Source: Paragorgia papillata
Taxonomy: Eukaryota; Cnidaria; Anthozoa; Scleralcyonacea; Coralliidae
DNA: 64,000 nucleotides
Assembly: GCA_035771165.1 (NCBI GenBank)
Contig: JAWNZC010000261.1
Coordinates: forward strand, 1,429,501-1,493,500
Reading direction: 5' to 3'
Each line of letters starts with the position of its first letter. The stretch's first letter is position 1. Of the stretch, positions 36,638 through 61,447 are shown one piece after another. The notes under the pieces were generated by a model, which searched no databases, was not told the origin of the DNA, and saw nothing but the letters and a program-made list of their open reading frames with translations. The translations under genes were made by a program, and so were the position numbers.

Positions 36638-39600
36638 ATGACGGATCCGAAAGGTAAAGTCACCTCAAGCGCACAGAAAACGCACTGTTCAGCTGTGAAC
36701 TGTTCAAACAGCAAGCGATCGCATCCAGATCTTAGTTTCTTCCGATTTCCGTCCGATCTAACAAGGTATGTTTTTGCTTTCTGTGTTGTTTCAGATCATA
36801 ACTCTTGAAAATTGGTAAAATGTTAAAAATCATTTAGATCAAAAGAATGGGTAGTGCTGTGTCGACGCGAGGACCTTTTGGACAAGAGCGCAAAATATCT
36901 ATATAATAATTGCAAATTGTGTGCTGAACATTTTGAAGATTGTATGTTTTACAACTTCTTGAAAAACCGCCTGAAATGTGACGCCAAACCAACACTGTTC
37001 AACATCCCAAACCCACCAGCCAAAATCAGTCATAAACGACGAACCCTGCAGAAGACAACCGCAGTTAGTAAAGGTAACTGGACTTTTCAATCATGTGCTT
37101 AAACCCATGTCCATTTAAAATTATTTAGTGAAAAAAAATACATTTAAAAAATTCCTTTTTAGGAAAGAGGCTTAAATTGGATGAAAGTAGCAGTCTGGAA
37201 GGTATGTAAAAGTAAGAACAGCTACATGTACATAATCGCAAACTTTGCATAAAATACCTCCCCCAAAAATAATTTTGAAAATACCGAGTGTTTGAGTATT
37301 TCAGTGGGACATATTCTAGGATGAGTATATTATGTACGTTGAGTAAAAAACGGTTTTCATAATTTTTTTATGACCCTCTTTTACAGTAATAGAGGGCCTT
37401 GAAAAATTATTCCTCCTTCACCATGACCTCTTCCCCCTTGCAACCATGCACCCCTTAGATATAAGCGGAGAAGAATTGGGTGAGGGGGGGGCATGATATT
37501 CTTCGCTACAGCCAAGGAGAAAGGCTCATCAATGATCTGGGAGTGGGAGTGGAGGTTGTGGTGTGGTGGGTGGTAAGACTCAATGTTTCATTACAAACCT
37601 CCACCCCATCTGGAAATTTATGACTTCCCTCTAAACTCAAACAACAAAAACTTCATTGACATTGTTACCCAAAATCAATAGACAGAACTCCAATAATGTA
37701 ACCAAATGTACTGTATATTTAACTGTAATTGTATGCATGACAAGCCAACAGCAAACATTTTTAAACATTAATTATAGACCAAGATAATATACATGGACAA
37801 GGAAGTTCCAGCAAGGAAGGCAACAATGAAGCACAAGATGTTGCTGATATTGAAAGTATAAAAATATTTTGCCATAAGTCTTCAGTGGTGGATCTGAGCA
37901 GGGGGGGGGGGTGTGTCCAACCCTCAAAAATATTTTTGACAAAAAACATGAAAGCATTCAAAAATACAGGAAATAGAATTATAGCACCTTATGAAATTAA
38001 AAAATTTCCATGGTACATATATGCACATACCCCCATCTGCCTATACATTTTTCACATGAAAAGCTGTTGCCACCCCCCATCCCACCCCCTACAAAAACCC
38101 AGGCTGGATCCACCACTGGTCTTTTATATATGACATAAAGCTATAATTATGTTAAATTGGCAAGGAGTTCTCACATAAATAATTAAGAATTTATCAAGTT
38201 CTTTTTTTCTGATTCAGTGCATCAAGAATTTCTGACAGCAAACAACTTAAACGATTGCAGCACTCAGACAAGCCAACACCTTTCTAATAATACACCTAGA
38301 AAAGAGAAACAAAAAAAGGTTATTCAATCTCAGAGCAAGAAAATCAAGCGACTGAAGATGGCAGTTGGGGGTTATCAGGTTTCAAATGGGAAGAAAGCCA
38401 GACAAGAACAAGCATTGGAAGAGGCACTTCAGAAGTTGCCAGAAAATCTATCTAATTTTGTTAAGATGCAGCTGGAATTAAATTCAAAAAAGAAACATGG
38501 AAGACGATATTCATCACAGATGAAGTCAATAGCAATCTCTTTGTACCATGCCAGTGGGAAAGCATATCGGTTGTTATCCAAATTGTTTGTTTTGCCAACT
38601 AAATCCTCCCTTAAGAGATATATATCAAAAATGCCAACAGCCCCTGGTATTTCCCAAGCAGCATTAAAAATAATAGAAAAGAAAGTAATGCAGATGGATC
38701 CAAAAGAAAGATTGTGTACACTGTGCATGGATGAAGTTTCGTTAAAGACCCACCTGTACTACAACATATCTGCTGACAAGATAATTGGTCTAGAAGATTT
38801 TGGAGGAAATTACAGAACCAACAAAGTGGCAACATCTGCTCTTGTGCTGCTGGTACGTAGCATCTCAGGAAAATGGAAACAGCCCATTGGTTACTACCTG
38901 GTGAATGGAGGATGTCCTAGTGACCTCATGGAAGATTTAGTGAAAGAGGCAGTTGAAAAGTTGGATAGCATTGGTTTTGAATGTTGTTGTGGTGATGTCA
39001 GACATGGGATCCAACTTTTACAGTTTATCCAAACGCCTGAATGTCACTCCTGAGAAGCCCTGGTTTATGCACAATAAGAAGAAATACTTCCTGATGTTTG
39101 ACCCTCCCCATTTATTAAAGTGTGTACGAAATAATCTAATGAAGTACTCCATCAAATTTGGTGAGCATGTGGCCAAGTGGAAGGACATTGAGGATTTCTA
39201 CAACAAAGATACAGCACTTTCCATCCGTTCAGCACCCAAGTTAACAGAAAAGCACATACACCCAACCAATTTCAATAAAATGAAGGTCAAGTTGGCAAGC
39301 CAAATTCTAAGTCACACTGTAGCAGCCTCACTTTGCATGTATGTTAGTCTGGGGGCCATTCCATCTACTGCCATGGGAACAGCAGAGCTTCTTTTGAAAT
39401 TTGATTCAATTTTTGATTGTGTAAACAGCTCCACTGTATACTCCACCAAAAAGTTTAAGTGTGCTCTTAGTGATAAGACCATGCATCAAGAGTTTATGAA
39501 AGAGGCAATGGCCTTCATAAAAGGAATAAATGTTTTCGATGACAACAATAAAAATGTAACAGGGAGAATTAAGTGCCTAAAGGGATGGTTGGTTACCCTC

Positions 39601-40402
39601 AATTCTTTTAATTTGGAATCACCTCTGCACAAACCATGGTTTTAAGTTTCTCTTGACAAGAAGGCTAAACACTGACCCTTTAGAGAATTTCTTTGGTACC
39701 ATACGGCAACAGGGAGGGAATAATGACAACCCAACCCCAATACAATTCACCAGTGCATTTAGGAAATTATTTTTTAGTTCATTTCTCACTTCCTCAGCTG
39801 GGAATTGTGCTGAAGATCTGGACAACCTTCTTGCCCAGTGTATAGAAACATCAACTTCACCAGTTCTAGTTACAACACCAACTCAACCCAAGACCCTGGC
39901 AATTGGACCAACTGACTACAAAGAGACAAACGTGAACATGAACATTATCAAAGATAATGCCATTGCATATGTTGCTGGTTACCTGCTCCACAAATGTATG
40001 AAGATCCACACTTGTCAAACATGCACAGAAGGCTTGGTTGCTAACAGTTTGGAAGATAACAAAAACCTACTTTGCTATTTCAAGGCATTTAACCAGGAAA
40101 AGTCAACATTTGGAGGCCTGTATGCACCAACAGACACCTACCTTCAATATATCATTCTGTTGGAAGATATTTTTGTCAAGAACTTTTCTGTTTATACCAA
40201 GAGCCCAACTGTTGGAAATGATATCTTACAGCTGCTGAAGAATGTACCAGTAGCACCTCAGTGCTGTGAAAAATTTCCAATTGACTTTCACCAGAAGTTG
40301 TTTCTGCGAATGCGAATTTATTACTCTTTGAAATTTGCAAATCGCAATCTAAAATCCACTAAAAGAAAAGATAGAAAATATCTGAAAGTGTCCCACCTTT
40401 AA
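36638..40402 (+). CDS. THAP-domain P-element-type transposase, five exons, two frameshifts
   Basis: Exons 36638-36765, 36838-37073, 37163-37201, 37778-37855 and 38218-40402, all GT-AG, total about 887 residues; human THAP9 is about 900. Residues 1-90 form a THAP zinc domain: CSAVNC, FRFPSD, EWV, CKLCAEHF and AKPTLF. A basic, lysine-rich stretch follows. The RNase H-like catalytic part shows LCMDEVSLK (first Asp), VMSDMGSNF (second Asp), FDPPHLLKCVRNNL and DPLENFFGTIR, the P-family end motif with the likely catalytic Glu. One base is surplus near 38983-38995, just before the second Asp, and one near 39630-39636. Everything else is open, so it is either a very young pseudogene or an assembly artefact. 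It would cut and paste the surrounding element and its 2.3-kb relative. Confidence 0.88.
37883..38118. mobile_element. 236-bp MITE in the transposase intron
   Basis: Begins CAGTGGTGGATCTGAGCAGG and ends CCAGGCTGGATCCACCACTG, flanked by GTCTT on both sides. CAG...CTG ends resemble hAT MITEs, though only five flanking bases match rather than eight. It contains a G-run and C-rich blocks. Confidence 0.75.
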
Positions 40403-41497: not shown

Positions 41498-43328
41498 TAG
41501 TATAAATACATAGGTGATTATTTCAAAAAAATTAAAATATGCACATGAATTTCAATGAACAGAAATTTTAATGAATTTAAAAGCGGCATGCGTGATAACG
41601 AAGGCGCACGCAGCCATCGGTCACGTGAAGATCGAAGTCGAACAGTCGACATTTTTAATCACTCAACCAGATCAGTGCACTCAACTGTCAATTTCTTCGT
41701 AAACAATGGTAAACATGGCAATATTGAACGTTCAAACAGTCTACAAATGCAAAAAATCAACGTCCATGGTTTACATTAATATTGAACGTGAAAGAACAGT
41801 TTTCAAATGTCCCTGATGGCAGAAGAGCTCCAGGATTACAGCCGTTTTCAATCAGAAAATTCTCTTGTTGTGAACTGAGGTAGCCTTGGCCAGAAGAAGC
41901 TGAAACTAAGGCGTTTTGTGGTCTGGATAAAGTGGCAGCAGGAGGACTAATATTATCAAGCTGAGGCTGTGAGATTTCATCGCCTTCGACATAAGAAGAA
42001 AGGGCCTTCGACATATCTTTGAATTGGTTGAGTGTCGGCCGCTCACAATAGCTCTCAATGCTTGTGTCACTTCGATGGCCTGTAATCGCTTTGATTTTAC
42101 GCGTCTCGATGTTATTTGACGACAGAACTGTTACGGTTGTAGCCCTCAACGAGTGGTTTGTCAGATATGGAGAGATTTCTGCTCTGGTGGTGATGATTTT
42201 CAACATATTCTCGAGAGTGTTGTGACCAAGCTTTCGAGCACTATACCACACCATGCAGGTCTCGGGACTAAACTTGCTGGACAATTATTTTGGTCTCTGG
42301 AAAAGAGCATCATTTTCTGGATTAAGATGCGAAAGATATGCCTTTATCAAAGCTACTGGACAACGCGGTGAACCTGGCCTGGAAAAAATTTCGCCGTCTG
42401 AGTGATCTTCGGCAGCTTCAAGTCCTCCAGGATGGTTTTTGCTCGTGAGGACGGTTCCTGCCTCCTTCTTATTTAACTCGAAGTATTCTTCGCCATTGGC
42501 CGTCGTTACTAGACGAAGCATTGATTTATTCACGAGAGCCTGGTTTTCTCTTCCTCTTTTGCCGAAATACAGCGAAATAAAAAACCATGCAGTTTGGAGC
42601 AAAGCGCGAGGGTCGTGTGTTGTTGCTTGTGCTAGTTCGCCTTTCTCGTACAACTTTTGAATTGTTTCGCTTGTCAATGGCGTCTTGTGGATAGTCCCTG
42701 CAATTTTCCCAGTACTGCAAAGATGCTTAAGGTAAGAATTCAGTGTTTTGTTAGATTCACTGAACATGTTGTTGTCGCAAATGCTGAATTTCTTGTTGTA
42801 TGGCGGCGACTTCAGGTGCCTATCCAGAGCAGCTCTTATCGACAACAACGTTGCTTTTTTATAATATTTCCCTTCATTTTTTCTTATGGAGACGTAGAAT
42901 TTGGACAAGCACTTATTCATTTCTGCAACATTCATCTCTTCGAACTCAGTAGTAAATTCTGACTGTTGTTGAAACCACTCTGTTGTGAAAAAGATTTTTT
43001 TGACAATTGTAAACAATGTGTAGACGATTGTAGCGTATTTGACTTTTCGCGTTGATAAAATGATGTTTTTAAACAAAATAAAGTTCGCCAGCATTCTGCA
43101 ACGTAGTTACTTACCTTGAAACAATTTTAGACCAAATTTCGTTGCTTCTTTCGTGCTTTTTGGTATAGCATTTTCTTTGAAATTGTTTATTTCCGCATCT
43201 GTTACCTCTACAAAACGGCTTGCCGCCATTTTTAAAAAACGCTGTAGGTGATTATCGCGAAATAATCCGAGGTAGCTCGACCAATCAGCATGCGCAATTT
43301 TCAATAATCACCTATGTATTTATACTAA
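41497..43328 (-). mobile_element. Crypton-like element bounded by 26-bp perfect inverted repeats
   Basis: TTAGTATAAATACATAGGTG ... at 41497-41522 is the exact complement of 43303-43328. Between them lies one tyrosine-recombinase gene on the minus strand. A shorter inner pair (TAGGTGATTAT at 43246, ATAATCACCTA at 43305) lies near the right end, next to the presumed promoter. Cryptons are normally described as lacking terminal inverted repeats, so these ends are unusual. The unit lies inside the 3' region of the P-like element. No target duplication is evident. Confidence 0.75.
41757..43229 (-). CDS. Crypton-type tyrosine recombinase (DUF3504-like), two exons, one in-frame stop
   Basis: Exon 1 43229-43115 (start MAASRFVEV in good Kozak context), exon 2 42979-41757, phase-1 GT-AG intron; about 446 codons. 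The N-terminal part (EMNKCLSKFYVSIRKNEGKY) matches the SAM-like region of Crypton and KIAA1958/ZMYM-type proteins. The catalytic set is complete: Arg in YFGKRGREN, HSLR, GHRS, and Tyr in SIESYCERP. These enzymes cut and rejoin DNA through the tyrosine, and Cryptons move by this reaction. A TAA at 42285-42287 interrupts the frame once, between FQRPK and LSSKFSPE, with no shift. It separates the first Arg from the other three catalytic residues, so the copy is inactive unless the stop is an error or is read through. An upstream ATG at 43304 would add 25 residues and overlap the inverted repeat. Confidence 0.85.
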
Positions 43329-50530: not shown

Positions 50531-51118
50531 CTATATATTTATATGTGAGTTGTAGTTGTTCCTAGGTTCATCTTTCCCCCATTGTCCATGCTTAACAATC
50601 ATCACAGAAGAACAGAAGAGAAATTCCTTCTCTTTTCTAGCAAAAATCCTCTTTAATGCATCCAGGGTTATTGATGTAATTTCATCCTTATGCATAGCCC
50701 TTTTCAGTTTTGGCAACTTTTTTACCCCACAGTACCCCATAACATACCATTTATCATTGTGAAATACTGAGAATTTAATGGCATTTGTATCTTTTATGTT
50801 GTCAGGTTCATGCTCCACTTGTATTTCTACAAGAAGATTTCTACATCTCCTCCAAGAACAAATAGAAAGTGCCTGTTGGTAAATTATTTCAGACCATGAT
50901 CCAACCACAGCAAACCGTTCTGCAAATAGGACATTTTCTTCTTCAGCGCGGCCATTATTGTCTGTATCTTCCAAGTCAAGAATTTCTGTCAACTGATTGA
51001 GTTCATCACCTTCCTTACTAGTATTATCATCAGAAGTTTTACTCTCGAATGAACCCAATTGATATGCTAGAATAGCGCTGTATGCCATCCTTTTTTTTTC
51101 GACAATAACGATGTACAA
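50531..51118 (-). CDS. HIRAN-like protein, 195 codons
   Basis: One unbroken exon. If the ATG at the MAYSAIL position is used the product is about 185 residues; the longer frame adds MYIVIVEKKR. Residues 1-75 are acidic and low in structure. From about residue 85, FAVVGSWSEIIYQQ ... VEIQVEHEPDNIKDTNAIKF ... VMGYCGVKKL resembles the HIRAN domain, whose hallmark is the E-x-DN-x-x-D-x-NAI strand followed by a GY loop. HIRAN domains bind DNA ends in helicases such as HLTF. Here it stands alone, as in some transposon-associated proteins. The 5' part and upstream region are repeated in inverted orientation at 52440-53233. Its ending (NYNSHINI) resembles that of the Tudor-knot gene at 54633 (NYNRHTNIV), perhaps from related elements. 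Function is unknown. Confidence 0.6.
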   Translation of the reverse strand: MYIVIVEKKRMAYSAILAYQLGSFESKTSDDNTSKEGDELNQLTEILDLEDTDNNGRAEEENVLFAERFAVVGSWSEIIYQQALSICSWRRCRNLLVEIQVEHEPDNIKDTNAIKFSVFHNDKWYVMGYCGVKKLPKLKRAMHKDEITSITLDALKRIFARKEKEFLFCSSVMIVKHGQWGKDEPRNNYNSHINI

Positions 51119-53233
51119 TCCTGACTCACGGGAGGCGAATAAAAGAAGGATAGCTTCGGGTGAAAGGAACGCCGATTTGTCAAGGATAAAGGTGTGAAAT
51201 GAACGCCGACATCTACTTCTGTGACCTGTTCGTCGTTCGAAGTAGTTTCAACGGGAATATTTGGTACTAAGACGATTCACAGCAGTTTATCACGAGGAAA
51301 ACCCGTCGGTGTGGCGATTACAAAACGACAACAATAGAGCGTGGGAAAGTGACAAGAACTTGTGCATGTCATCAGTTTCATATTTCTTTTTATCGAAGTA
51401 TTGTTTGCGTCGTTCGATCTTTGATCAAGAATATATCGAAATATACTTGACTTGGTAATGTCGTCTACCTCTGGTTCTAACACTGATAGCTAAAATGACT
51501 AGACTAGGATGTAAACATTATTCCGGGATACGTAATCGAGATCGAAGACGAAGTAAAACTGTCTTCCAGTGTGGCCATACCTGAAGACGTATCATCTGAA
51601 TGCATTGTCAAGCCGTATGAAGACGAGTCGGTTGCCGATGATTTGGATCGTAAATCATAATGAGCAAATGCGACTTGAAAAAGGTCTTTAGTACGACGGC
51701 TAGAAATTCGCTTTTGAGGGGCACGATAAGGTAAATGATTGGTAAGTTTAATTGAAAGTTGCTTTTATCAGTGAATTTATGTTTACGTTTTATCTGCAAA
51801 TTAATGTTGTTTTCACGCATTTGCTAAAACAAAATTGTATGCTGTCAAAGCCTAATGATTCGCATGTTTAATTCTATTCGATATTACTCTGACACTGACT
51901 GACTGCTTAATGCGAATGCGAAGGAATGTCAGTAAATCAAAGCTTGCATTGAAATGGTTTATAATAACAGTGTCAAGTTCTTTACACTTGTTTGCCTGGA
52001 AATCTGGTCACTGCGTCTAGCGGGATTACTTACATAAAAAAATTGACAAGATAAAGTATCAAATAAAAGTCAGTACAGAAAACAGGTAGGAACTGTCTGT
52101 TGATTAAAATAGATTAATGGAATACTTGCATCCAGAGTCAATTTCTTCAAGTTTGAAGATGAAATCGCACAATTGTTGTTGTTTATCGAATTGGACGAGC
52201 ACTGAATTGTGGCAATTTTGAAGAACGAAGCAATTCTATTAGCCTAGGTGAATTGTGCGCAGCTAGCTTATTCGCAAGTGAAAATCGGAAAGCGAACGGG
52301 TATTCTATTAATCAATACTGACAGTATCTACCTGCTTTCTACATCTTCTATTTTATACTTTGCCTCGTCAATTCTTCGATATTTGCAGCCCGCTAGACGC
52401 AGTGACCAGATATATAACAAATATAAACATGCGAATCATTTGGCTTTGACAGCATTATTACAATTTTGTTTTAGCAAATATGGCCAATTGCAAATATGGC
52501 ATGTCAGTGATAAAACATTCGATAAAACGTAAACATAAATTCACTGATAAAGCAAACTTTCATAACTTACAAATCGTTCACCTTATTGTGCCCCGCAAAG
52601 CGAATTAATAGCCATCGTAGAAGATATTTTTCAAGTCGCATTTGCTCATTAAATTTGCGATCCTAAACTCGTCTTCATACGGCTTGACAATGCATTCTGA
52701 TGATTCGTCTTCAGGTATAAATGGACTAGACAGTAATACTTCGTCTTCGATCACGATTACGTATCCCGGAATGTTTACCTCCTAGTCCAGTCATTTTGGC
52801 TATCAGCATTAGAACCAGAGGTAGACGACATTACCAAGTCAAGTATATTTCGATATATTCTTGATCGAAGATCGAATTCGATAAAAAGAAATATGACACT
52901 GATGACATGCACAAGTTCTTGTCACTTTCCGGAAAAACACGCTCTATTGTTGTCGTTTTGTAATCGCCACACCGACGGGTTTTCCTCGTGATAAACTGCT
53001 GTGAATCGTCTTAGTACCAAACTACTTCGAACAACGAACAGGTCATAGAGGTAGATGTCGGCGTTCATTTCACACCTTCATCCTTGACAAATCGGCGTTT
53101 CCCGAAGCTATCCTTTTATTCGCCTCCAGTGAGTCGGGAATCGGGATTGTACATGGTTATTGTCGCAAAAAAAAAAAAGGCATACAGCGCTATTCTAGCA
53201 TATCAATTGGGTTCATACGAGAGTAAAAACACT
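51036..53233. repeat. 2.2-kb imperfect palindrome around the HIRAN-like gene's 5' region
   Basis: Arms 51036-51850 and 52440-53233 are inverted copies with moderate divergence. Shared words are CCAATTGATATGCTAGAATA, AAATATACTTGACTTGGTAA and GCATTGTCAAGCCGTATGAA. A further inverted pair, CTGGTCACTGCGTCTAGCGG, lies at 52003 and 52383. The loop (52030-52370) carries TGAAGAACGAAGCAATTCTA, a subterminal block of the P-like family. The right arm ends inside the coding sequence after YESKN, so it holds a truncated second copy of the gene start in opposite orientation. A P-family fold-back origin is possible, but the CACAGAATAAA ends are not present. Confidence 0.7.
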
Positions 53234-53854
53234 ACGCACCTGTTTGGCATAATTTTTAAAAGAATTTCCGACAAAATAACCTGAATAAAGCCAAGAAAAT
53301 CCAAGGTGAACCGTAAACTCCCGATGTAAACACTGTTACTGTCTGAGAAGGTCTCCCTGCCTTACGTCACTTCCGGCGACTAGAACCCAGTAAAAAATTT
53401 TCACGGCCATCGTCAAAATCGCCAACTTTAACAGCAAAAAAGTCCATGAAGATGGAATTTTAGGAAAAGAAGATATATTACAAATCTTCTTAAAATGTTC
53501 AAAATATCCTAAATATGTAAAATCCCCAACCCTGAGATAGGCACTTTAATATTAATTTATCCCTTCCACAGATTTGCGACCAACTCTCAGTCTTTTAACT
53601 CCCTTGTACTATAATTGTTTTTTATAAAAAGAGAATTATTGAAATAATAATTTACGCGAAATTTTACTGAATTAAATGCCATGGATTTTGAAATATTACA
53701 ATTAATACAAACAGTTAATTTAATAGCTTCAGACATTGGCCGCTCGAGATCATATTTCATTTAGGGGTGTTTGACAAAACCAAAGAGCTCCACTGCAGGC
53801 GTTACTTCTCAGCCCTCTCCCCAGTCCCCCAATCCAGTAACGCCTGCTATGCAG
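53234..53854. other. non-coding stretch with a MITE end
   Basis: At 53790-53855 CACTGCAGGCGTTACT ... AGTAACGCCTGCTATGCAGG forms a hairpin next to the LINE fragment. Nothing else is recognised. Confidence 0.45.
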
Positions 53855-54008
53855 GCTAGTCAAGGCTCAATTTATGGGCCTCTTCTTTTTCTAATCTACA
53901 TAAATGATCTTCCGCATTGTGTGCAACATTCAAGACCAAGAATGCATGCTGATGACACAAATATAACCACAAGTGGTAGATCATTAAAAACTGTTATTGA
54001 ATCAATTA
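53855..54008 (+). pseudogene. CR1/L2-like LINE reverse transcriptase, 5' piece
   Basis: QGSIYGPLLFLIYINDLP and MHADDTNI are RT motifs (the catalytic box has HADD for YADD). The open frame continues to SLKTVIESI, where the 6.5-kb element is inserted. The frame resumes at 60527. The copy is 5'-truncated at about 53855. Confidence 0.85.
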
Positions 54009-54493
54009 GCCTTTCTCACGCTATGCGACCAGGCCTTTCCCGCCATTTTTGGGTGGCAAAACCACGCGGGGACAGAGGATGACAACAATTCAAAGTGTAA
54101 TTTGGTGAAGTGGAAAGCCTGTACATTTGGACGCTTTTTTTGCAATTTAAATAAAAGAAAACCGAAGTTCTTGCTTAGATACCTGAATAGGTAGTTCATC
54201 ATACTGGATGTGAAATTTTAGCGCTCCAATTTGTAAACCACCGAAGAAAACAGAGATTGATAGTTCAATGTGACGTCGTCAACGACTTCAGGTTAGATCG
54301 ATGATTTATTTACTTCAATACACGGTGTTTGACTCTGAACTACACTTGCCCTGCGATAATTAAAAACATATAAGTTATAAAAATCTAATCACTGACAATC
54401 ACTTGATCTAAATTCAGAGGTTACAGAATACTAGCTCGGAGTATAAAAGGCTTTTTGTTGTGTTTTTAGACCAATGGTCGCCACACAGCTTCC

Positions 54494-54568
54494 ATGCCTG
54501 GACGAGTTAAATGTTTCGTCACAGGCTGCAGCAATTCGTGGTACAGATATCAAACTTATCCCTATTAG
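54494..54568 (+). pseudogene. THAP-like first exon in the left inverted repeat
   Basis: MPGRVKCFVTGCSNSWYR has the start and Cys-x4-Cys pair of a THAP domain. The inverted copy at about 60057-60000 has a stop in place of the second cysteine. The frame closes after 24 codons here. In the right repeat the sequence after WYR leads into a different open stretch. It is probably a remnant of a THAP-bearing transposase gene. Confidence 0.5.
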
Positions 54569-54632
54569 TTGAGACAAATGCTTTTACTAGATCCCAGTTT
54601 CCTATTTTCTCAAAACACGCGCAGTAATCAAA

Positions 54633-55355
54633 ATGGCGACGAGGCCGAAGAGAGAAACAAGAATCCCAAAGAGGTATTCGGAAGAGTTTATTGAACCAAA
54701 GCGGAAAAAAACATCTAAAAGTGTGAGAAATGACAATAAACTTTACGAAGTGGAAATCGTCGATGTCAACAAAGAGGAGGGGAAGGTAAAACTTCACTAT
54801 AAAGGATATGGAGAAGAATACGACGAGTGGAGATCTTGTGTTGGTGAATGGTGACAATATGCCTGTCACACGCTTGGAACGGAGGAGTACGGCATCGAGA
54901 AATTCGTTAGTTGACCGTCTTACTTCCCTGCACGAATCATTGTATCGGGAAGTAAAACGAAAACTCTATTCTACACTTCGCGACGACCCGGAGATCAGAA
55001 TAGATATCCCCATAGATAGGACGTATTTGAGGAAGGTCTCAAGAAAACGGAAGACGTCACGACCAAATTTATCCGGGGGAAAACTATTTACTCTGTTCGC
55101 TCGAATAGAAGTTTGGATATTGTACTTGGTGCCAAATGGGACGAACGTATATTTAACCAAAATGGAGATTTTGCCTACGTTGTGCATGGTACTGTTCGTT
55201 TTTGGTGTACAAAGAGAGCAGCGATTAAAGAGTATAAACTCATTGCGGGGAGGTATATAGAATCGGCAATTGAGGATGACAACATTTTAATTTTTACATT
55301 TGTAAGGGGTGATGGGAACAGTCATAATTATAATAGACACACAAATATAGTATAA
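54633..55355 (+). CDS. Tudor-knot (chromo-barrel) protein, frames broken
   Basis: The ATG at 54633 opens MATRPKRETRIPKRYSEEF, a basic leader. LYEVEIVDVNKEEGKVKLHY and GYGEEYDEWR follow, the Tudor-knot/chromo-barrel fold of MSL3, MRG15 and ARID4-type readers of chromatin. Further on, a region with DPEIRIDIPIDRTYLRK and then LDIVLGAKWDERIFNQNGDF and EYKLIAGRYIES is unrecognised. Two frame changes occur: one near 54840 (one surplus base) and one near 55040-55060 (the opposite sense). Total length would be about 240 residues. It lies between the left inverted repeat and the RAG1-like gene, in the opposite orientation to the latter. A chromatin reader beside a transposase could guide target choice, but that is inference. 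Confidence 0.6.
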
Positions 55356-55544
55356 TAATTTCTTTTTATTTTGTTTTGTTAAGTTTGTATACAATTATAT
55401 ATTTTGACCAGAATTTAATGGTTATTATTATTATGTCTCCTCTAATACAGATTTAATTTGTTGGATGTGTAAGGCTTTCACCTTTGGTTGAGTGTTCAAC
55501 TTGAGTCCAATAATCTCAACTTTGACTCTTGTTGGGCTCTTATG

Positions 55545-55992
55545 GGGTGTTCATAATATGAGCCAGGCCAGTCTGTCTAGCTGGATGACCGGCCGGTTAA
55601 CCTGATTTTTATTTGTGTTCACATGAGAAGAGCTAGCCTGCCAAGCTGGGATGACTTGTTTACCAAGATGACTGCAACTATTTTCCCACTAAGCATGAAA
55701 TATTGTTTTCATGAGCATGTTTTAAATTTATAACAAACTCATAAACAAACATAACTTTTGAAATGAAAAGTTGACCAAAATATATAGGTCAAGATGAAGT
55801 TGTTTGTGTGTTCTAAGCTTTGACTTGCTAGCCTGGTTAGGCAGCCAGCCAGTGGTCATTGTGTTCATAGGGGGTAAAATAGAACGCCTAGCCCGGATAA
55901 TAATCCAATATTACTATTAATATTTTTATTAAGGCAGTGGGTTCTGGCATTTCAAAGTTATCCCATGTGGCCCAGCTCATATGAACACCCCC
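55545..55992. mobile_element. ~448-bp MITE with GGGGTGTTCAT ends
   Basis: Begins GGGGTGTTCATAATATGAGC and ends CTCATATGAACACCCCC. Internal AGCCTGGTTAGGCAGCCAGCC and CTAGCTGGATGACC add imperfect symmetry. It lies just beyond the stop codon of the RAG1-like gene. Confidence 0.75.
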
Positions 55993-56005
55993 TTAGCTAC
56001 AGTAT

Positions 56006-57799
56006 TTACATCTGACAAGACACTACCCACTTCTTATTTACTTTAATAAGATGCCCACAGCAACTTATATGGTCACATTGAGTGCATTTTGCAGTGCAAG
56101 TTTTTATTGTATGACCATTATTCCCACAGTTCCTACATCTATAACTATTCTTCACCCTTTCATAGCCTGCTGCTTCAAGAAACTGTACCCTATTCTTTTT
56201 TTGAAACATTTGTTTCAAAGATTCTATACCCCTGTGGTTACTTGATCTAAAATAATGTTTACTAGATGTGTCATTATACTTTTCCATACCTTGTTGATTA
56301 AAATAACTGATGTTGTTATATTGGCTGAGAAATTCTGGTACATGCGAAAATAATGCATGCATGTATGGTGTTACATCTTTTGTTTGGTAAATAGAATTAA
56401 AAAGCGTAAACCACGATGTCACTTTGTCCCTGAATGACTCAATATGTTCTGTTGATGTAAAAGTTAATTTTAAATCACGAATTATGTCCATGAAAATTTT
56501 CCATAAATTCTGAATTTCATTTTTATCCTCACCATTGGGTAGTAATGTTGGGATATTTACACGCTGGAAAAAGATCAGCTTCTCTGGACCAGTTAGGTCT
56601 CTATAATCTAATTTTTTTGTGTCTGGGTTTACCCTCCATTGAAATGAAATACCTAAGTTCTGTAGACAAGCTTCATATGCAGCCATGTGCTTAAATTTTT
56701 GTCTTGAAAATTCACCAGTGAATTGCTGATTTTTACCAATTGAATCTTGTCGTTTCAGTTCTCGTATGAGCAATTATATTAAATTATCAGCTATCCTTAG
56801 AAAAAGGTGTAAAGTGTCAATAATAACATGGTCTAAATCAATAAAAGAAAATAGTGGTGGAAATTTGCAATTAAATTTTCTTGACCTTGCATGTGCAGTG
56901 ATTTCCTTAATAGATCTGGCCCCAAAATCAGGGTTCTTTAAAGACCACTGTTTACTGGTAATCCCTCTTTGAAGCCTTGGGCATTTACACCAAATACATG
57001 CATATTCCTGATTTGCAGCCCCTTTCCCACAAACGGTAGCCAAAAACTTCCAATCCCCTCCTAAAAAATACTCTAATTTATATGTGGAATTATCAACTGT
57101 TAGTTCTTTTAAATGTTCCATTTCAACACTATAAGTTCCCCTAGATTTATTCTTAAGTTGTCATAAGTTTCCTTCATCTGAATTATTGCTAAAATGTAAT
57201 TCCCTTTTTCACTCATTACAACATTATTTTCATTTAAAATTGTATATGTAAAATTCTCAATTTTTAACCTTTTACCAATGTTTGTTCCATCTCCACTTAA
57301 TTTTATTTTTATTGTATCACCATCATTGATCAATTTATTCAATTTTAACTGTCTAACATTTTCCTCAAGACTCTCTACAAAACTTATCTGTATCCCCAAC
57401 ATATCTCCAGGTGTGGGTTTCAGATTCCATTTGCTGTTCAATTCCTTCATCTGCTTTGTCATTTTATACAGATTGGGCACTCCTTTAGCACTTCTCGATA
57501 GCTCACCCCATGCTTCATTCGAAATTTGGTTTATTTTCATCTCTCTTCTTAGAAGCTAAAATAAATATATGCATATATAGATCCGAATTATAAGTAGTTC
57601 AGCATAATTAACCAAAAAATCAGGGAATAGAAAGAGAATGTGACTTACTTGTTTATTTCGACATTAAATGAAGGATATCTAGTCCCCGAATCATTGGCAT
57701 TGCCATCCGAACTCGAGTGTTGTTCACCTATAGCATGAACACAACGCCCCCAAATTAAAAGTGTCAAAAGCAACAAGACTATAGATTTCAGGCCCATAT
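56006..57799 (-). CDS. RAG1-like transposase candidate, two exons, one frameshift and one stop
   Basis: Exon 1 57799-about 57650 ends at a GTAAGT donor; exon 2 runs from about 57555 to 56006. Exon 1 begins with an unexpected hydrophobic stretch (IVLLLLTLLIW), so the true start may differ. Exon 2 shows, in order, Asp in KLSGDGTN (57289-57291), Asp in GGDWKF (57053-57055), a Cys pair in YACIWCKC 19 and 22 residues on, HALFSHVPE, Glu in GMEKYN 25 residues after the first His, and the zinc knuckle CRNCGNNGHTIKTC. In RAG1 the same kinds of residue occur in the same order (D600, D708, C727/C730, H937/H942, E962), and the 19, 22 and 25 spacings are identical. The frame is broken near 57155 (one base missing) and by TAA at 56774-56776. 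A divergent Transib/RAG1-superfamily transposase is my best reading; a different RNase-H-fold family is possible. Confidence 0.6.
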
Positions 57800-58220
57800 T
57801 GCCGAGGTTAAATCGCTACGAATATGGATGAAACACCCATCAAAATGATGCAAATTTTGTGATCTTTCGAAATTTGGCGGTAGAAATTTGATATACGCAT
57901 GCACAATAAAGTTATAGAGCCCAGTCCACGGCTTCCAGTCGAGCGGCCAACAAAACATACGGCTATTTTGCAATACCATCGGTCACGGAACCTCGAAATG
58001 CCAACCCAAAACTTCACTCATATTTAACGCACACACATATAGGGCAAAGCTTATATGCTCTTATTTCATAATCCGAAGGTAGTAAATTGTCTTCGATAAA
58101 AAAGATTATAATAAACAGCGAAAATCATCGAAATTCCTTGTTTATTTCTTAGCGGAAGTCGCTGTTTCGCCCCCTTGTAACAAGACCCGACTTTTTAGTA
58201 CCAATAAGTTTCATATTTGA

Positions 58221-59985
58221 GAAATATAAATAATAAAAAACGAGATCTAAGTTTTAATCCGTCGGTTATCTAGTAATGAAGCTCTTGTTGAAAAGTACGA
58301 AAGCATTTTAAAAACTAAACTTTCAAACGCACAAAATGCAAGTGCAGATGCAGATGGAACTTTCAGGAAATTGTTGTCTATTCAGACATAGATTTGGAAA
58401 TTTCTTCCATTGAGTTTGATGAAGCCTTCTTTCTGGATCTAAAATACACATGTATTTATAGTTACAGAACTGGTATGATGTTTATATCAAGCTTATCTTG
58501 ACATCTCAAAAATGCCCCAAATCATAATAATGTAAATTACCTTGTGTATTGACAATTATAAACAAACATGGAACACATCTCTAGGTGTTTTTAATTTAAA
58601 TAATGAATTATTTAATTATAATAATTAATTAATTAATTAATACAATTATTTTATAAATATAAATATAATTATATATTTAATTAATTAAAATTGAGACAAA
58701 ATTATAAATATCTATTAAAATAATTGTAAATAATTTAAATATTCAAATACCAAATTGTACATTCTTTTATAACATTATGTTTCTAAAAATAATCATGTTC
58801 AATAAAAATATTTTGTATACAGTAATACACATATTCCTCAACCTGATTGATTTTGGAACCAATAGGTAAGAGTCCAATTACTTTCCATGTAGGATTAAGT
58901 AAATCATGCTGATTCATTTGGCAGACCTGCAACAGGATATGCCAGTTTCTCATTCTTCCAATAAATCGTTCAACATGTGGAACTGTGCAACTACTGTTAA
59001 AGGGTTAGTTGGCATAACCCCAGACGGAATTGGTTGTTTTTTTAGTGATCTAATGCCACGATCAATATCAGATTTACACATAAATCTTAGATCAACACTT
59101 AAATCTGGTGTACTAGATATAGTTGAATCTGGCAGTGGAGTGATGACAGATAGAGGGTTTACCATCCAGGATACCTGTGCTGAAAGGGGGCTGTACCATT
59201 TTACACCACCACTGTTGCAGGCTGAGCAAATGTCAATCACTGAATGCACTAAAACATTTGACATAACTCATCTTCATATTCATGTTGAACGATTTATTGG
59301 AAAAATGAGAAACTGGCATATCCTGTTGCAGGTCTGGAAAGTAATTGGACTCCTAGCTATTGGTTCCAAAATCAATCAGGTTGAGGAGTAAGTGTATTAC
59401 TGTATAAAAAATATTTTTATTGAACATGATTAATTTTAGAAACATAATGTTATAAAAGAATGTACAATTTGGTACTTGAATATTTGAATTATTTACAATT
59501 ATGTTAATAGATATTTATAAAGTCTCAATTCTAATTAATTAAATATATAATTATATTTATTAAATAATTGTATTAATTAATTAATTAATTAATTATTATA
59601 ATTAAATAATTCATTATTTAAAATAAAAACAGTTGGAGATGTGTTCCATGTTTGTTTTTAATTGTCCATGCACAATGTAATTTACATTATTATGATTTGG
59701 GGCATTTTTGAGATATCAAGATAAGCTTGATATAAACATCATACCAGCTCTGTAACTATAAATACATGTAGCTTTTAGATCCAGAAAGAAGGCTTCATCA
59801 AACTCAATGGAAGAAATTTCCAAATCTATGTCTGAATAGACAACAATTGGCTGAAAGTTCCATTTGCATCTGCCCTTGCATTTTGTGCGTTTGGAAGTTT
59901 AGTTTTTAAAATGCTTTCGTACTTTTCAACAAGAACGTCATTACTAGATAAGCGATTAAAACTTAGATCTTGTTTTTTATTATTT
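58221..59985. repeat. internal palindrome of the 6.5-kb element
   Basis: Left arm 58221-58977 and right arm 59280-59985 are inverted copies at high identity, including long AT-rich blocks (TTAATTAATTAATTAAT). The 300-bp loop carries the DDE fragment. The right arm continues without a break into the right terminal repeat, so the element's right side is a gene segment duplicated in inverted orientation. Confidence 0.85.
58960..59391 (+). pseudogene. DDE_Tnp_4-type transposase fragment
   Basis: WNCATTVKGLVGITPDGIG, SGSGVMTDRGFTIQD and HIHVERFIGKMRNW are typical of the DDE_4 family seen in Harbinger and ISL2EU-like elements. The Asp of MTDRGF and Glu of HVERFIG would be the second and third catalytic residues. 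The first (the usual DxTE block) is missing, so the domain is N-terminally truncated. The frame ends at 59391 within a region also present inverted at 58830-58890. ISL2EU-type proteins carry THAP domains, which fits the THAP-like exons in the terminal repeats. Confidence 0.7.
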
Positions 59986-60526
59986 ATATTTCTGTACCAC
60001 GAATTGCTTCAGCCTGTGATGAAACATTTAACTCGTCCAGGCATGGCCGCTGTGTGACGACCATTGGTCTAAAACACAACAAAAAGCCTTATATACTCCG
60101 AGCTAGTATTCTGTAACCTCTGAATTTAGATCAAGTGATTGTCAGTGATTAGATTTTTTTAACTTATATGTTTTAAATTATAGCAAGGCAAGTGTAGTTC
60201 AGAGTCAAACACCGTGTATTGAAGTAAATAAATCATCCTTACCTGAAGTCGTTGACGACGTCACATTGCACTTTCAATCTTTGTTTTCTTCGTTGGTTTA
60301 CAAATTGGAGCGCTAAAATTTCACATCCAGTATGATCAACTACATATTCAGGTATCTGAGCAAGAACTTCGGCTTTTCTTTTATTTAAATTGCAAAAAAA
60401 TCGTCCAAATGTACAGGCTTTCCACTTCACGAAATTACACTTTGACTTGTTGTCATCCTCTTTCCCCGTGCGGTTTTGCCACCCAAAAATGGCGGGAAAG
60501 GCCTGGTCGCATAACGTAAGAAAGGC

Positions 60527-61447
60527 AATTAATAAAGACCTGAGCAACATAAAGCAGTGGTTACTAGCAAACAAATGAAGTCTAAACGCCACAAAACAGA
60601 ACACATGTTTATAGGATCGGACGATAACCTTAATAAAACTCGAAATTTATCGCAAATTAATATTGACGATCATTAAGAAAAAAGTGTTAAATTCACTAAA
60701 TGTTTGGGTGTGCATATTGATGAAAGACTTGCTTAGGACGAACACGTTGATTGTATGTCAAAAAATATTTCACAAGCAATTGCAGGCTTGAAGCAAGCGC
60801 TTCCACTTGTTTCCAAAGAGGTGGCCCTTGCAATTTACAATTCTTTAATACAGCCTTTATTTGATTATTGTGATACAGTTTGGGATAATCTGACGGCATT
60901 CCAAGCAACTAGACTACAAAAGTTAAAAACCGTGCTGGCCGGCTATAAGGCTATGATGTCCGATCCTAAGTAATTATAGAGGAACTGGTCATAAAGTAGT
61001 CCTCGTACATAAAGCACTTAACAACCTAGCACCTCCATATCTGTTAGAATACTTACACTTGTGCAACTATTCGGAAAATTATAACTCTCGAGATCGCGAC
61101 ATGAAAATCGCCTTATTAAAACCGAAAACGAATTATTTAAAAGACAGTTTCGCGTACAATGCTGCAAAACTGTGGAATAGTCTACCTAATGAAGCAAGAT
61201 TAGCAACAAGCTTAAAACCGTTTAAAAATTATGTCTCATCCTTTAGTTTCTCAAACTAAAGAATCATAAGCAATTAAATTAATTAAATTAATGAAATAGA
61301 TGTACAAATAATATATTATAATTATTCATCATTTTATCAAAATTACAAAAAAATAATTGTGTATATACAACCAATGTAAATATTTAATCGGCTTTCATGA
61401 AAAGAAAGCAATTTGTAATTATTGATTGAAACACCGATTTTAAATAA
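60527..61447 (+). pseudogene. CR1/L2-like LINE, 3' piece and 3' UTR
   Basis: The continuation of the RT frame from 54008: NKDLSNIKQWLLANK, then CLGVHIDERLA, AIYNSLIQPLFDYCDTVWD and, after an internal deletion, HLCNYSENYNSRDRDMK and FAYNAAKLWNSLPNEARLA to a stop at 61259. Several stops interrupt it (for example after LLANK). The AT-rich 3' UTR ends in TTTTAAATAAATGATCTC followed by a (TCTG)n tail. Dead copy. Confidence 0.85.

Follow-up and report, generated by a model that had tools for sequence, protein, structure and literature searches.

What a gene with the catalytic residue pattern of RAG1 belongs to, and with what partner its product would work when no RAG2-like gene is seen beside it, is the question raised by 64,000 nucleotides from the anthozoan Paragorgia papillata (contig JAWNZC010000261.1, positions 1,429,501 to 1,493,500 of the forward strand; this whole stretch is called the window here). 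A prediction made from the letters alone (the original prediction) took the gene for a divergent member of the RAG1/Transib transposase superfamily. Very probably it is part of a dead copy of a cut-and-paste transposon, in which a RAG1-type DDE transposase gene converges with an accessory gene of the royal family and which would move by the mechanism proposed below. Both genes, their tail-to-tail order, the inverted ends, the imprint of purifying selection and near-identical copies elsewhere can be read from the DNA itself. We file the element as a RAG1-related CMCT lineage and not as RAG1L or Transib, because its residues are CMCT-wide, the spacing from the first zinc-binding His to the catalytic Glu (E) varies, and EnSpm was compared by unverified probes only.

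A broken transposase gene and its open relatives

The genome searched comprises 617,864,297 bases in 473 contigs, and L numbers denote loci from it. There are at least 51 matches to the DNA of the original prediction and at least 67 to the L149 transposase protein, several of which may fall in one copy. Frames were counted stop to stop, start codons and introns not being fixed, and in L149 the only open frames of at least 90 residues are the transposase (765 residues), a convergent accessory frame (244 residues) and one antisense frame. Four further members (L169, L170, L171 and L172), at about 45–47% identity, have open transposase frames of 751–792 residues. More distant members, at 29–34% identity, lie at C77:2200684-2202684, C64:114301-115983 and C58:1931216-1932658, two of them with open frames of more than 800 residues.

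Frame reading and alignment to L149 show the window gene to be broken in three ways, by a frameshift, an in-frame TAA and the loss of its N-terminal part; what is left stands in three pieces (Table 1). Pieces 2 and 3 are a single frame but for the TAA, the site of which holds a sense codon in five of six further copies (GAA in L132 and L133, GAG in L134 and L135, GGG in L136) and TAA in the 98% identical L131. Because both the TAA and the piece boundary recur in L131, which lies elsewhere in the genome, it is probable that the window copy was already broken when it moved, using enzyme from another source (in trans). Only residues 262–765 of the 765 in L149 are matched, so that the N-terminal third is missing, and comparison with L149 gave no convincing counterpart of its first 261 residues in the window copy; RAG1 has a RING region and a nonamer-binding domain upstream of its core, and in L149 the N-terminal 250 residues, missing from the window copy, are modelled largely as helix, one helix being long. 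The idea of a signal-peptide-like exon at about 57799-57651 was dropped.

The predicted residues are all in place, with spacings of 19, 22 and 25 and the C-terminal knuckle, and the distance of about 80 residues given for the two Asp (D1 and D2) is 78 in 11 of 11 rows where the scripts matched both motifs; D2 to E spans 255–262 in the rows measured. One shared residue had been overlooked, the His of IDTLH, which corresponds to H795 of mouse RAG1, and with it the family has the full eight-residue set of D (as SGDGTN), D, E, C(2)C, the extra His and H(3-4)H. This pattern is beyond chance because paralogues as distant as about 45% identity keep it, and a chance motif is thereby ruled out. The knuckle Cx2Cx3GHx4C occurs in L149 (residues 723–736), in L170 and in the window, with Asp for Gly in L169.

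Among 21 transposase pairs the 19 distant ones have proportions of nonsynonymous differences (pN) of 0.09–0.40 and of synonymous differences (pS) of 0.46–0.81, and five distant accessory pairs have pN of 0.22–0.36 with pS of 0.79–0.82, near saturation; in both sets the pairs have sequences in common and are not independent. Because pN lies far below pS in distant pairs, both genes are seen from these alignments to have evolved under constraint.

Outside the genome the collections searched were non-eukaryotic, and no family relative came from them. Viral contigs gave none with single pieces, with the motif pattern (plus tblastn) or with a four-row alignment; the genome contig collection gave at least 115 stretches and no relative, the best tblastn value over 129 loci being 0.015; the phage collection, searched with piece 2 only, gave a best value of 0.8 and no relative; and the plasmid collection gave no relative, its HzTransib row being empty too. 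Rfam returned nothing at gathering scores.

Kinship with RAG1

That the transposase is related to RAG1, by which our antibody genes are assembled, is supported, at the level of sequence profiles and of a structure model, because a profile search of Protein Data Bank (PDB) sequences, a profile alignment set against 300 column shuffles and a fold search all point there. The family profile scores 49.6 with RAG1, and an unforced alignment with mouse RAG1 matches seven residues, D2 through E (D600, the counterpart of D1, lies outside the RAG1 fragment used). The fold search of the modelled protein and the alignment together gave the RAG1 core fold with the active-site and zinc residues, and in that search neither P element nor hAT was the best match. 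By this joint reading the transposase has, again very probably, an RNase-H-like domain in which a zinc-binding insertion separates D2 from E, and a CCHC knuckle at its C-terminus. A better match to another superfamily, or a structure setting the residues apart, had been named beforehand as telling against the RAG1 assignment, and neither appeared, the model being read without residue distances. As controls, the P-like and DDE_4 sequences of the window showed no similarity to RAG1 or to the transposase family.

Several observations weigh against this reading. A single-sequence search with L149 found no RAG1 at E<=10, Pfam scans gave no transposase family for the gene, piece 1 and the RAG1 fragment showed no pairwise similarity, and 3 of 300 shuffles reached the PAM250 score of piece 3 against RAG1. 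There was no signal, pairwise or by profile, with HzTransib, the one Transib member compared, by part of its sequence. Profile A1 ranked the ribosomal protein eL43 over RAG1, a zinc-ribbon match which was set aside as spurious when RAG1 overtook it with a more diverse profile. The structure model is of middling quality and was read without residue-level superposition, D1 is placed solely by its position after a predicted strand, and a single-sequence AlphaFold2 model was useless (predicted local distance difference test score 36.4). In the L149 transposase frame, read stop to stop, the first Met is residue 44, and the three closest pairs, two of transposase and one of accessory sequences, have ratios of nonsynonymous to synonymous substitution of 3.27, 0.53 and 0.62, uninformative or high.

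The knuckle is present but not diagnostic, because its spacing is that of an ordinary retroviral knuckle; a retroviral or Gag-like origin was considered and rejected, since in the alignments given the PDB matches of piece 3 cover no more than the knuckle and its edges. Nor do the two identical spacings single out RAG1, as had been argued from them: the first-His-to-E distance, counted on PDB rows, is 25 in mouse, 28 in lancelet and 27 in HzTransib, and the CMCT clade as a whole shares C2C and H(3-4)H (PMC12730594).

The best placed alternative is that the element is of some other CMCT lineage (EnSpm/CACTA, Chapaev, Plavaka or an unnamed one), itself no closer to RAG1 than these are, and that RAG1 comes first since RAG1, RAGL and Transib were the only CMCT members to appear among the solved structures. 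This is a distinct though lesser possibility. According to passages of PMC12730594 the clade shares D, D, C2C, three His and E, mostly CA..TG ends, and duplications of 2–5 bp, and this element too has CA..TG ends; the fold-search lists contained neither an EnSpm nor a Chapaev transposase, an uninformative absence. Two unverified EnSpm-like probes score 17.9 and 22.2 against 49.6 for RAG1, values that RAG1 shuffles reach as well, which speaks weakly for RAG1.

It is rather improbable that the element is instead a strict RAG1L or a Subgroup I Transib that is without RAG2L, whether by loss or from the start, and acquired another partner. Subgroup I Transibs keep alpha11-alpha12 of the zinc domain, a CTT1 tail and asymmetric ends (PMC9435367), and the CCHC tail, the ends alike over 13–15 bp only and the D2-E distance, against 211 in HzTransib, would suit such a member. 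However there is no 5-bp duplication, a genome search made without a positive control found no HzTransib-like match, and the lancelet protein is far more similar to RAG1 (phmmer 9.4e-64 against the mouse core). Of the proposed RAG1/Transib membership, then, kinship with RAG1 stands on three tests, whereas a place within RAG1L or Transib proper does not, the partner not being RAG2-like, no 5-bp duplication being seen and HzTransib giving no signal.

The accessory gene

The RAG1-related transposon seems to have a partner of its own. The original prediction saw no RAG2-like Kelch gene nearby, but it overlooked a second, convergent gene; Pfam scans of three accessory proteins found neither Kelch nor PHD, the rest of the window lying outside the Kelch scan. 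The predicted protein has about 235–260 residues and, by profile search, an MBT/Tudor/chromo-barrel-like domain of the royal family: the five-row profile A3 matched PDB sequences of L3MBTL3 (1.9e-5), PHF20 (2.3e-5), L3MBTL (2.4e-4) and MRG15 (Mortality factor 4-like 1; 0.0023), and Pfam gave MBT and MSL3 chromo-like matches, below cut-offs only. Less favourably, the L3MBTL3 score adds up three weak repeats, none of which does better than 0.5 by itself, and both the binding of the two proteins to each other and the binding of histones are predictions by analogy.

Could the accessory gene be a captured host fragment with no part in transposition? Transposons do capture host genes. Across 28 loci (L130-L157, window included) the transposase is found in 27 and the accessory match is absent at 6 of these 27, some possibly cut short. 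But in 21 of 21 loci the accessory gene lies on the opposite strand, tail to tail with the transposase, and the placement recurs in the four loci at about 45–47% identity; with the low pN of the accessory pairs beside near-saturated pS, this makes capture unlikely.

Ends and target site

Copies L131, L135 and L136 align from window position 54547 and end at window 58216-58231, with differing flanks. Both ends were read in 11 copies, where left ends start CATATCAAAC and right ends CATATCAAAC or CATATGAAAC, so that CA..TG termini are present (CATATCAAAC..GTTTSATATG), the terminal bases of the window copy being changed. Within a copy the inverted ends are alike over 13–15 bp and read CATATSAAACTYWN, with some exceptions. 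The near-identical pairs L138/L163, L149/L160 and L145/L162 (98.8–99.2% over the longest aligned block) lie at different sites, and in each the similarity stops precisely with the terminal C at one end; this defines the terminus there and points to recent movement. Three copies, L135 (4082/4462), L136 (4104/4487) and L134 (63/443), have another inward-facing CATATCAAA-like end some 380 bp in from the right end, as if a subterminal repeat or a small element of non-autonomous kind were present.

Since the flanking bases of the 11 copies differ, we take these to be separate insertions. At the junctions of the 11 no exact direct repeat of 4 to 10 bp occurs (the flank read being 9 bases in L135 and 11 in L149), and a 5-bp target duplication was not seen, all 11 having 2 or 3 mismatches of 5; the short matches are an exact 3-bp one in L136 and an exact 2-bp one in L140. 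At L133:365-555 the two flanks of L139 run directly into each other (86% over 199 bp), an empty site without duplication. On the other side of the account this is the one empty-site witness, and a genome-wide search found no continuous empty site for the L138 flanks. The L142 flanks match window repeats, and that junction could not be read. A target duplication of ATAT at CATATG sites, with true ends CAAAC..GTTTG, would explain the ATAT at both ends of the 11 copies but is contradicted by the L133 empty site, where the flanks of L139 join without CATATG between them, and is very improbable.

The RAG1-like element is nested in an older one, with inverted arms at 54001-54550 and 59988-60533 that are 94% identical. 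The idea that the RAG1-like gene was part of this large inverted-repeat element (54001-60533, target duplication AATTA) was abandoned when the copies showed a separate insertion inside it.

Comparison with known systems and a possible mechanism

With the CMCT clade the element shares the eight residues (three acidic, two C, three H) and the CA..TG ends, and it differs in having no consistent duplication where passages of PMC12730594 report 2–5 bp. With RAGL (ProtoRAG and the protostome and cnidarian RAG1L-RAG2L) it would share the RAG1-type core fold, as modelled, and aligns at D2, C2C, H795, H4H and E; also alike are the C-terminal Cx2Cx3GHx4C, the two convergent genes and, judged by eye only, short ends starting CA and containing CAAAC, CATATCAAAC here against CACTWMCAAACKTYKBB in passages of PMC7204232. 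A microalgal 13-bp end element is given as CACACCCAAACCT (PMC9435367). In contrast the partner here is a royal-family protein and not the Kelch-PHD RAG2L, and the 5-bp duplication of RAGL was not seen. Relative to RAG1 itself, D1-D2 is 78 residues against 108 (D600 to D708) and similarity is at the profile level only; D2-E is 255–262 against the 254 of mouse by residue number. Transib (HzTransib, PDB 6pqn/6pqx) differs in giving no pairwise or profile signal, in the D2-E of 211 (counted with the Asp of MIDGK as D2), in the second gene here, and in its 5-bp duplication, not seen here. P element and hAT (Hermes) have an RNase-H-like DDE core with an insertion, as this transposase is predicted to have.

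The transposase would pair the two ends and cut at the outer CA with D340, D418 and E674 (L149 numbering), perhaps through hairpinned flanks as RAG does, while its knuckle may touch the end sequence, as the C-terminal tail of lancelet RAG1L does in passages of PMC7204232. The accessory protein might bind the transposase and read a histone mark, so as to steer or license the reaction like the PHD finger of RAG2. The excised element would then join its target without duplication, by a blunt cut or by capture at a double-strand break.

The beginnings of V(D)J recombination are framed as a single transposon in which RAG1 was joined by RAG2. A RAG1-related transposon whose convergent partner is an unrelated, chromatin-reader-like gene points to repeated recruitment of histone readers by such recombinases, and we put at even chances that a RAG1-type recombinase was paired more than once with a tail-to-tail histone-reading partner, the element here, with its royal-family reader and duplication-free integration, being an independent counterpart of RAG1-RAG2. 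Titles and abstracts from a literature search showed no RAG1-like transposon with a royal-family partner, Repbase being outside that search and an entry there possible; passages of PMC12730594, PMC7204232 and PMC4411706 and the text of PMC9435367 describe the duplication-free mode neither for RAG or Transib nor for the CMCT clade. Why RAG needs RAG2 becomes testable by comparison, and duplication-free insertion by a RAG1-fold enzyme, if true, widens the known range of this active site. With open-frame copies, and near-identical copies at different sites of the genome, the system is assayable.

Features and neighbouring sequences

Table 1. Parts of the RAG1-like transposon copy, in window positions
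Feature	Position	Strand	Basis
Whole two-gene transposon copy, about 3.67 kb	54546..58217	not assigned	shared extent of copies and different flanks
Left terminal inverted repeat	54546..54559	+	GATATCAAACTTAT in window, CATATCAAACTTAT in L131
Right terminal inverted repeat	58204..58217	-	minus-strand AATATGAAACTTAT in window, CATATGAAACTTAT in L131
Accessory gene, broken in window	54633..55355	+	MBT/Tudor/chromo-barrel-like domain 54633-54854; conserved C-terminal region 55020-55352 (alignment A3, tblastn)
Transposase piece 1 (D1)	57112..57555	-	open frame; aligned to L149 (alignment A1)
Transposase piece 2 (D2, Cys-x2-Cys, H795-like His)	56777..57160	-	open frame; alignment A1
Transposase piece 3 (His-x4-His, Glu, CCHC knuckle)	56009..56773	-	open frame; alignment A1
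D1 codon (SGDGT; SGDGTN in family)	57291-57289	-	position check
D2 codon (GGDWK)	57055-57053	-	position check
Cys-x2-Cys, 19 and 22 residues past D2	56998-56996 and 56989-56987	-	position check
His of IDTLH (mouse RAG1 H795)	56809-56807	-	alignment to mouse RAG1
His-x4-His	56359-56357 and 56344-56342	-	position check
Glu, 25 residues past first His	56284-56282	-	position check
Cx2Cx3GHx4C knuckle	56137-56096	-	position check
In-frame TAA splitting pieces 2 and 3	56774..56776	-	read against other copies
Frameshift zone, overlap of pieces 1 and 2	57112..57160	-	same piece boundary in L131
Region upstream in gene, within the coordinates of the original prediction	57556..57799	-	similar DNA in L131, L132, L133, L137

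Elsewhere in the window a P-element-like transposase lies in three overlapping frames at 38187-40399 (TNP-like_RNaseH_N 5.6e-34, TNP-like_RNaseH_C 2e-13) and a tyrosine-recombinase-like gene in two pieces at 41763-43106 on the minus strand (Phage_integrase 9.1e-8; DUF3504 3.9e-6, just under cut-off). Frames at 50534-51247 (minus) and 53005-53284 (plus) look related by eye, the longer with a sub-threshold HIRAN hint at 0.073. The 54001-60533 element, with arms of about 550 bp, sits by eye in sequence resembling a long interspersed nuclear element, its AATTA duplication being 5 bp, or 6 bp if the ends are asymmetric. Adjoining the RAG1-like element, at 58219-59993, is a palindrome with arms of about 0.7 kb around a DDE_Tnp_4 fragment (Pfam 6.9e-18).
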